From assembly GCA_947259215.1 (NCBI GenBank), contig CAMYLJ010000007.1:1-64000 (forward strand): a stretch of 64,000 nt of DNA, given 5' to 3'. The notes beneath the pieces were generated by a model. The model had not been told where the DNA came from. It worked only from the letters and a program-made list of their open reading frames with translations, and did not search any database. The stretch comes from an uncultured delta proteobacterium (GTDB lineage: Bacteria > Myxococcota_A > UBA9160 > JAFDET01). Every line of letters begins with the position of its first letter. The stretch's first letter is position 1. Both the position numbers and the translations under genes were made by a program. This document shows positions 23,280 through 26,332 of this stretch, in pieces.

Positions 23280-23349
23280 CAGGCCGAAGCAAGCCGAAGT
23301 CTTGGGTCGGCTTGCGCCGCAAACGGAGCCCATCGGGCTCCGTCAGCTA
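23277..23349. repeat. Two-hairpin convergent element, copy 1
   Basis: 73 bp from the cupin stop codon to the stop codon of the opposing DUF502 gene. It begins with CTAGCAGGCCGA, contains an inverted repeat AAGCCGA/TCGGCTT, then a strong hairpin (ACGGAGCCC-atc-GGGCTCCGT) and ends in CAGCTAG. About 45 bp are identical to copy 2 at 26275-26335 apart from the loop. It probably works as a bidirectional terminator and provides both stop codons. Confidence 0.75.
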
Positions 23350-24045
23350 GGCCGGATCCGCCTGGCCGGCGCCCGGCAGGGGCGCGGAGGCGTCGGCCGC
23401 GGGCGGCGACTCGTCCCCCGGCGCGACGAGCCCCGCGGACATCACCAGCTTGAACGCCTCCTCGACGCTGAGGTCCACCTCGATCAGCTGCTCCTCGGGC
23501 ACCAGCAGGTAGAAGCCCGAGGTCGGATTGGGCGTGGTCGGCACGAAGCAGTTCACCAGGGGCTCGGGGGTCGCGTCCTGGACGATCCCCCGGGTGGGCC
23601 CGGTGGTGAAGGCCAGGGCGTAGAGGCCCTTGCGCGGGTACTCGATCAGCACGACCCGGTTGAAGCGCGAAGCCTGGGTGCTGGCGCCGAAGATCGCCTC
23701 CGCCAGCTGCTTCACCGCCGTGTAGATGTTTCGCGCCACGGGCACCCGCCGCAGCAGGCGCTCCCACAGCCGCACCAGCTCGTACCCGAAGAAGTGTCGG
23801 GCCACCACGCCCATCAGCACGATCAGCATCAGGGTGAAGAGGGCGCCGAGCACCGGGATCGTCGGGGGCTCGTAGCTTCCGGGCAGGACCAGCTTCAGGA
23901 TGCGCGGAAGCAGCAGGTTGTCGAGCCAGCGGACGATGGAGAAGATCGCCCAGACCGTGATGGCGATCGGCGCGAAGAACAGCAGGCCGGCGACGAAGTA
24001 GCGACGCAGGGCCTCGCGGATGGCGACGAAGACTCGCCGGATCAC
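23347..24045 (-). CDS. DUF502 membrane protein
   Basis: 232 residues from GTG 24045. Two transmembrane helices near the N-terminus (YFVAGLLFFAPIAITVWAIF, and VLGALFTLMLIVLMGVVA), then a soluble beta-rich domain with PVARNIYTAVKQLAEAIFG, VLIEYPRKGLYALAFTT and TPNPTSGFYLLVPEE, the hallmarks of DUF502. The family is widespread and of unknown function. The start is 7 nt after the stop of the PqqA-like peptide gene, so the two are probably co-transcribed. Confidence 0.88.
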   Translation of the reverse strand: MIRRVFVAIREALRRYFVAGLLFFAPIAITVWAIFSIVRWLDNLLLPRILKLVLPGSYEPPTIPVLGALFTLMLIVLMGVVARHFFGYELVRLWERLLRRVPVARNIYTAVKQLAEAIFGASTQASRFNRVVLIEYPRKGLYALAFTTGPTRGIVQDATPEPLVNCFVPTTPNPTSGFYLLVPEEQLIEVDLSVEEAFKLVMSAGLVAPGDESPPAADASAPLPGAGQADPA

Positions 24046-24052
24046 GGCGGGC

Positions 24053-24205
24053 TCAGAAGAGCGGTCGCTCGTCCCCGTCGTCCGGCACGTAGGAGGTGAT
24101 CTCGCAGTCGAGCGAGATCACCTCGAAGGCGGGGGCGGCCCAGCTGCGGGTCTCCCGGGGATGGGGCGACGAGGCCGCCGCCGGCTCGCGTGTGCGTCGA
24201 TCCAT
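24053..24205 (-). CDS. PqqA-like precursor peptide
   Basis: 50-residue peptide from ATG 24205, too short for ordinary gene calling. The core resembles the PQQ precursor PqqA: a tryptophan and proline (SWAAPAFEV) followed by CEITSY, in which E35 and Y39 are spaced exactly like the Glu and Tyr that PqqE cross-links (ExxxY; known PqqA peptides read EVTSY or EVTMY). The N-terminal 20 residues are a charged leader. No pqqB, C, D or E is in the window, so the modifying enzymes would have to be encoded elsewhere. An AT-rich TATAAA-like box (minus strand, about 24214-24220) lies just upstream. Similarity was judged by eye. Confidence 0.5.
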   Translation of the reverse strand: MDRRTREPAAASSPHPRETRSWAAPAFEVISLDCEITSYVPDDGDERPLF

Positions 24206-24241
24206 GGCGGGGATTTATAGCACAAGGCCCGGGTCGCTTCG

Positions 24242-25381
24242 TCACGCGTGCTCGCGCTGGCGCAGCTCGATGGCGTGCACCAGGGTCTCGCGCGTCACCG
24301 CGCCGACGATCCGGCCGGCGTCCACGATGGGGATCTGGTTCAGGTCCCGGCTGCCCATGGTCACGAGCAGGTCGCGCACGGGCGCGTCGAGGCCGGCGGT
24401 GACCAGCGCCTCGACGGGGGTCGCCACCCGTGACACCGGCGTCGTCTCCCAGGCGTCGGGATCGAGGCGCCGCACATCGGAGAGGGTCACCAGGCCGGCG
24501 ACCTCACCGGCCTGCTGCACCAGCGCCCAGCGGCGGCCCCGCATCACCAGCTCGCGGGCAAAGTGGGCCACGCTGCTGTCGGCTTCGAGCCGGGCCGGGA
24601 TCGGCCCCAGGATGTCGCGGGCACAGAGTCCGCGCAGGCTGGCGTCGAGCTCCACCTGCCGCACGGCGCCCCCGGCCAGGGCGAGCAGCATCCAGCCGAT
24701 GAAGGCGAACCACAGCCCGGACACGGGGCCGGCGCCGAGACCCAGGGCCTGCATGGTCGGCACACCCATCACCTCGAGCGCCCCGAGGGCGATGAAGGCG
24801 TAGGCGACGATCTGGCCGGTGCCTGCGGCCGTGCGCGTGGCGCGGGCCGCGTCTCCCGTGATGGCCCACAGCACCGCCCGCAGCACGCGGCCGCCGTCCA
24901 GCGGGAAGCCGGGGATCAGGTTGAAGAGCGCCACGATCAGGTTCACGTCTCCGAGCCAGCCCGTGAGGAAGCGCACCGGCGCAGCCTCGGGGAGCGCGCG
25001 GGTCGCGGCCGTGAAGGCGAGGGCCAGCAGCCCGCTCACCACCGGGCCCGCGATGGCGATCTCCATCTCGGCGCGCGGGTCGTCCGGGTCCCGCTCCATC
25101 AGGGCGACGCCCCCGAAGACGAAGAGCGTGATGGACTTCACGGGAACCCGGTGCCGGATCGCGAGCACGCTGTGGCCGAGCTCGTGCAGCAGGATCGAGG
25201 CGAAGAAGAGCAGGGCGGCCGCGGCGGCGAACCCCAGGCGCAGCTCGCCACTCCAGTCGGGCGCGATGCCCCGGAGCTGGGTCTCGAGCATCCAGAACAC
25301 CAGCCCGAAGATGATGAGCCACGTCGGATGCAGGTAGATCGGGATCCCGAAGATCCGTCCGATGCGGAAGCCGCCGACCAT
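24242..25381 (-). CDS. Site-2 protease family (M50) membrane metalloprotease with CBS domains
   Basis: 379 residues. Six or so membrane helices with the zinc motif HELGH (H66, E67, H70) and the third ligand D162 in FPLDGGR. The C-terminal 130 residues form two CBS domains (ARDILGPIPARLEADSSV and SRVATPVEALVTAGLD). This is the SpoIVFB/Rv2625c-type group of intramembrane proteases that cut membrane-bound substrates, with CBS domains likely sensing adenine nucleotides. The substrate is unknown. Confidence 0.9.
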   Translation of the reverse strand: MVGGFRIGRIFGIPIYLHPTWLIIFGLVFWMLETQLRGIAPDWSGELRLGFAAAAALLFFASILLHELGHSVLAIRHRVPVKSITLFVFGGVALMERDPDDPRAEMEIAIAGPVVSGLLALAFTAATRALPEAAPVRFLTGWLGDVNLIVALFNLIPGFPLDGGRVLRAVLWAITGDAARATRTAAGTGQIVAYAFIALGALEVMGVPTMQALGLGAGPVSGLWFAFIGWMLLALAGGAVRQVELDASLRGLCARDILGPIPARLEADSSVAHFARELVMRGRRWALVQQAGEVAGLVTLSDVRRLDPDAWETTPVSRVATPVEALVTAGLDAPVRDLLVTMGSRDLNQIPIVDAGRIVGAVTRETLVHAIELRQREHA

Positions 25382-26277: not shown

Positions 26278-26332
26278 CAGGCCGACCCAAGGTCGGCTTG
26301 CGCCGCAAACGGAGCCCGAAGGGCTCCGTCAG

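Follow-up and report, generated by a model that had tools for sequence, protein, structure and literature searches.

PQQ is made from a precursor peptide, PqqA, whose leader is bound by PqqD; PqqE then joins a Glu to a Tyr residue of the peptide, a protease releases the joined pair, and PqqC is among the enzymes that then carry the synthesis through to PQQ (PMC2294125, PMC10906245). In Acinetobacter, changing the Glu to Asp or the Tyr to Phe abolishes PQQ (PMC2294125). The precursor gene usually lies together with pqqBCDE, yet a detached pqqA is, as an idea, already known from Methylosinus trichosporium OB3b, in which an unannotated gene away from pqqBCDE was found by manual review (PMC3615186). 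Likewise, pqqA copy number can depart from the rest of the pathway in the Methylophilaceae (PMC4109929). The peptide gene described here is similarly unannotated and similarly distant from pqqBCDE. However, the Methylosinus PqqA is close to that of Methylobacterium and concerns a single genome, whereas the location reported here is common to many genera; and the Methylophilaceae carry extra copies (3-12 per genome), whereas here one copy has been relocated.

The window analysed, which is the whole stretch of 64,000 nucleotides, encodes on its minus strand a 50-residue peptide that is very probably (roughly 0.93) the PQQ precursor PqqA, encoded away from pqqB, pqqC/D and pqqE. The features of the locus are the following.

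24053 to 24205, minus strand: detached pqqA-type gene, 50 amino acids plus stop; an open frame with homologues in 40 of 80 genomes and 15.3 bits against TIGR02107
24089 to 24142, minus strand: conserved core W22-Y39, WAAPAFEVISLDCEITSY, with PqqA spacing; P25, L32, C34, E35 and Y39 invariant in 29 aligned homologues
24103 to 24101 (E35) and 24091 to 24089 (Y39), minus strand: predicted cross-linked pair, spaced as in PqqA
24056 to 24088, minus strand: C-terminal tail VPDDGDERPLF; P-L invariant and the final F nearly so across the order
24214 to 24222, minus strand: extended -10 promoter-like element TGC-TATAAA, the hexamer's first T lying 14 nt upstream of the ATG
23347 to 24045, minus strand: DUF502 membrane protein gene (PF04367, 113 bits, 6e-33), 7 nt downstream of the peptide gene
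24242 to 25381, minus strand: M50 (site-2-protease family) peptidase with CBS domains (PF02163, PF00571), the upstream neighbour

The frame runs from an ATG at 24205-24203 to a stop at 24055-24053, and its product, MDRRTREPAAASSPHPRETRSWAAPAFEVISLDCEITSYVPDDGDERPLF, contains W22, P25, E35 and Y39. An earlier note on this DNA, which gave no strand, had described a 50-residue frame with W, P and an ExxxY core lying 7 nt before a DUF502 gene; both points are confirmed, the DUF502 gene starting with a GTG at 24045. There is no maturase gene among the immediate neighbours. In a survey of neighbours, DUF502 adjoined the peptide gene in many but not all relatives, often on the same strand, and was not found beside it in 7 of 20 extended loci; the M50 peptidase was adjacent only in a minority. 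A general functional link to either was accordingly rejected, and what is conserved around the peptide across the order is a glucosidase and, often, DUF502.

The peptide frame is a real gene. When 80 genomes of the order (MAGs of the UBA9160-type Myxococcota) were searched at the protein level, many proved to have homologues, and a profile built on the 29 residues of core and tail matched 40 genomes at E 5.5e-7 or better, 39 of these at 2e-13 or better and the best at 5e-19. The order consensus, [WYF]..P.FEVISLxCEI[TS][AS]YAPD...PLF-COOH, is near-invariant in its core and C terminus. Across the 29 aligned homologues P48 and L49 are as invariant as the five core residues listed above, and the N-terminal part varies in both length and sequence; the W of the W..P motif is replaced by Y or F in more than half of the order's copies. 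When 38 copies were compared over the codons of core and C terminus, codon positions 1, 2 and 3 differed by 26, 21 and 40%, a coding signature, although the extraction pattern fixed some residues and the alignment and profile are the cleaner evidence. No relative was recovered by a single-sequence scan of genome contigs; an alignment-based scan gave 34 loci. The MAGs concerned are unnamed or bear the labels Myxococcota, Deltaproteobacteria or Proteobacteria, mostly the first two and including UBA9160, and the name used here for the order was deduced from these labels. Among 379 genomes of the phylum, strong profile matches were limited to this order.

Several traits tie this gene to PqqA. The peptide has the W..P motif at a fixed spacing to ExxxY, with ten residues from P to E, and the aligned homologues retain E35 and Y39 in 29 out of 29 cases, the sole exception (His in G026) coming from a genome that has no PqqE. 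TIGR02107, the PqqA model with which the earlier note had proposed an alignment, fits residues 22-41 without a gap over 20 of its 21 positions; the score, 15.3 bits, fell under the cut-off of 20, which is a detection threshold rather than a biological trait. PqqAs that do sit in operons behave variably against the same model: that of G034 fails (18.2 bits), that of G359 is not reported, and that of G185 passes at 21.0. Apart from its score, the window peptide differs from TIGR02107-type PqqA in a Cys fixed before the Glu, a longer and variable N-terminal part, a conserved tail (APD...PLF) and a gene that lies outside the pqq operon, so that the usual company of pqqBCDE is absent. The invariant C-terminal tail is no known PqqA feature and counts against a plain PqqA identity.

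The profile itself was built without any operon-borne PqqA, and its matches beside pqqB therefore serve as an external test that it recognises PqqA. Outside the order it gave six weak matches, four of which (G185, G226, G359 and G361; E 9e-4 to 8e-3) are PqqA frames beside pqqB in other Myxococcota. These share the core spacing, ending in AEIG[AS]Y, and differ from the window peptide in their position beside pqqB, in an Ala before the Glu and in a variable tail that lacks PLF. The other two matches, in G195 and G227, contain stops and were set aside as noise.

The enzymes are present in the peptide's own genome. Where the earlier note had suggested a search for pqqBCDE, other radical-SAM/SPASM genes and PqqD-like domains, PqqB, PqqC, PqqD and PqqE were all found over their cut-offs: pqqB (335.5 bits, cut-off 245), a pqqC-pqqD fusion (PqqC 278.7, cut-off 240; PqqD 49.1, cut-off 46) and pqqE (470, cut-off 381) sit in a row on one strand of another contig, C35. 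The earlier statement that no pqq enzyme gene is nearby also stands. The C35 cluster contains no PqqA frame, and at E<=10 TIGR02107 finds nothing in the genome other than the window peptide. A potential user of PQQ is encoded on contig C21, a PQQ-dependent alcohol dehydrogenase (TIGR03075, 677.7 bits, cut-off 480) that, as read from its sequence and weak cytochrome matches, has a cytochrome c domain. The separation extends across the order: in a pattern search that extended about 1.5 kb or as far as the contig reached, 29 of 30 PqqE loci were without a PqqA frame, and the peptide is not adjacent to any pqq gene in any order genome examined. Some details of the enzyme loci vary. A QxYxW triad has been reported that is found in PqqE alone (PMC10906245); in its place the PqqE of the window's genome and that of G006 have QLHGW, and that of G078 has QLHGF (see also L122 and L128). 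The pqqC-pqqD fusion is shared with several other genomes of the order, unlike the genus of G055 and G061, whose stretches (L227 and L230) show a cluster of pqqB, pqqD and pqqE in which no pqqC was found.

Across the 80 genomes, 37 have both the peptide and PqqE, 3 the peptide only, 5 PqqE only and 35 neither (Fisher 1.3e-13); counted per genus the corresponding figures are 26, 2, 2 and 14 (p 1.1e-7), with the statistics uncorrected for phylogeny and PqqE counted only over its cut-off. The exceptions were looked at one by one. Four PqqE-only genomes (G025, G055, G070 and G074) also lack a DUF502 match, as does G061, whose PqqE is partial and cut by a contig end; since DUF502 is missing too, the peptide locus was probably left unassembled in all five. 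In the remaining PqqE-only genome, G034, no peptide precedes the DUF502 gene, but a PqqA frame of its own, WRKPVVEETACGCEINCYATSSGLRRPN, immediately precedes pqqD and pqqE. The PqqE of G034 sits among those of other Myxococcota, apart from the remaining 30 PqqEs of the order, which form a group with 100/100 support; judged by this placement, a foreign-type pqqE looks to have been acquired together with its own precursor. As for the peptide-only genomes, the copy in G026 is decayed, with CEITAH in place of the core Tyr, and G044 and G067, both fragmented MAGs, keep an intact peptide with no PqqE over the cut-off. In G067 the peptide occurs close to the end of each of two contigs of the one MAG (L182 and L025), which may reflect duplication or a splitting of strains in the assembly.

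G005 and G007, congeners of the peptide-positive G006, have no PqqE over the cut-off, and at the syntenic site before DUF502 they retain the promoter, the ATG and an 18-residue remnant (MNVLHRHTAGESEEQPLL in G005) in which the tail end is kept and the core deleted. In G008 and G027 the peptide is gone and only a TGCTATA motif is left before DUF502. Such remnants and promoters in genomes without PqqE indicate that loss of the peptide accompanies the missing enzyme while the neighbour stays, a natural experiment that ties an unannotated short gene to an enzyme. In G008 (L267; the G027 locus is L260) the motif lies about 13 nt before the GTG of DUF502 and may now drive DUF502 itself.

These observations bear on what else the peptide could be. 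The earlier note had offered, besides a detached pqqA, the substrate of another radical-SAM maturase, that is, a new ribosomally made peptide. The genome does encode other SPASM proteins, on C38, C6 and, weakly, C49 and C39, and the tail is unlike that of known PqqAs. However, those SPASM proteins that were tested fit no peptide-maturase model at cut-off, the only other PqqD-domain match over its cut-off is marginal (C19, 23.2 bits), the out-of-order profile matches adjoin pqqB, and the peptide comes and goes with PqqE; we regard a different maturase as highly improbable and this part of the earlier proposal as unsupported. Equally hard to credit is a role in regulating DUF502 translation, as a leader peptide or short upstream frame. 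Such a role would suit a frame placed 7 nt before DUF502 and sharing its strand in many relatives, yet DUF502 is missing beside the peptide in the loci mentioned above, genomes without PqqE retain DUF502 and lose the peptide, and it is the peptide core, not a spacing, that is conserved. That the frame and its ExxxY arose by accident, conceivable for something so short in a genome rich in G+C and in spurious frames, is refuted by its conservation at the E values given above in half of the genomes surveyed, its coding-type substitution and its conserved promoter, and has a negligible probability.

The reading as a detached pqqA, in contrast, is borne out by the invariant ExxxY core, by a genuine PqqE and pathway in the genome, by a PqqE locus that lacks pqqA, by the co-occurrence and joint loss with PqqE, and by the profile matches beside pqqB in other Myxococcota. 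The two findings that the earlier note had named as speaking against a modified precursor, a core not conserved in relatives and a genome with no maturase, were not made: the core is conserved and PqqE is present.

The gene also appears to have its own means of expression. Of 39 distinct copies, 33 have TGCTA ahead of the start, and in 28 of 39 homologues it comes with a -10-like hexamer that begins 12-15 nt before the ATG, an arrangement seen at 0.43% of ATGs in related loci. The corresponding binomial value of 1e-57 should be read as indicative rather than exact, since the copies share ancestry and the most favourable ATG was picked for each. Five copies have a spacing of 29-33 nt instead, several of them with a purine stretch resembling a ribosome-binding site. 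With the hexamer 12-15 nt upstream, transcription would begin on the ATG or no more than about three bases from it, and the mRNA is predicted from this spacing to be leaderless or nearly so. A separate strong promoter fits the need for an excess of PqqA, which in Klebsiella is ~20-fold over PqqC or PqqE (PMC2294125); in Methylosinus, pqqA expression is far above that of the other pqq genes (PMC3615186).

Taken as PqqA, the peptide would work as follows. A strong extended -10 promoter of its own would drive the gene, whose transcript probably has no leader. By analogy with the family, from which we infer the chemistry of binding, cross-linking and excision, a PqqD domain would bind the peptide, PqqE (a radical SAM/SPASM enzyme) would join E35 to Y39, and a protease would cut the joined Glu-Tyr pair out. 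PqqB and PqqC would then complete PQQ for quinoprotein alcohol dehydrogenases, the C21 enzyme being one example. A more speculative and rather unlikely extension is that the order evolved a distinct PqqA subtype, in which the tail APD...PLF-COOH is a dedicated signal and the relocated leaderless gene sets the precursor supply apart from the enzymes. If so, the tail might signal, for example, to the protease that excises the joined pair, or for turnover of the spent peptide.

As far as the literature searched shows, four things would be new: the order-wide relocation, a divergent sequence that scores under the detection cut-off, an expression that is probably leaderless, and the near-invariant tail. 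Genomes of this order appear to have pqqBCDE without a precursor, and their PQQ autonomy would be misjudged from annotation; the peptide gene, and the profile that finds it, supply the missing precursor for this uncultured order. The fixed tail also offers a handle on the protease step of PQQ synthesis in genomes that have no recognised pqqF.

A minor observation concerns the intergenic DNA of the window. The 23-base sequence GGCTTGCGCCGCAAACGGAGCCC occurs exactly twice, at 23309-23331 and 26295-26317 (plus strand), each time inside longer similar intergenic stretches, and translated traces of it are also present in the C35 locus (L093), which suggests a dispersed repeat family of this genome.
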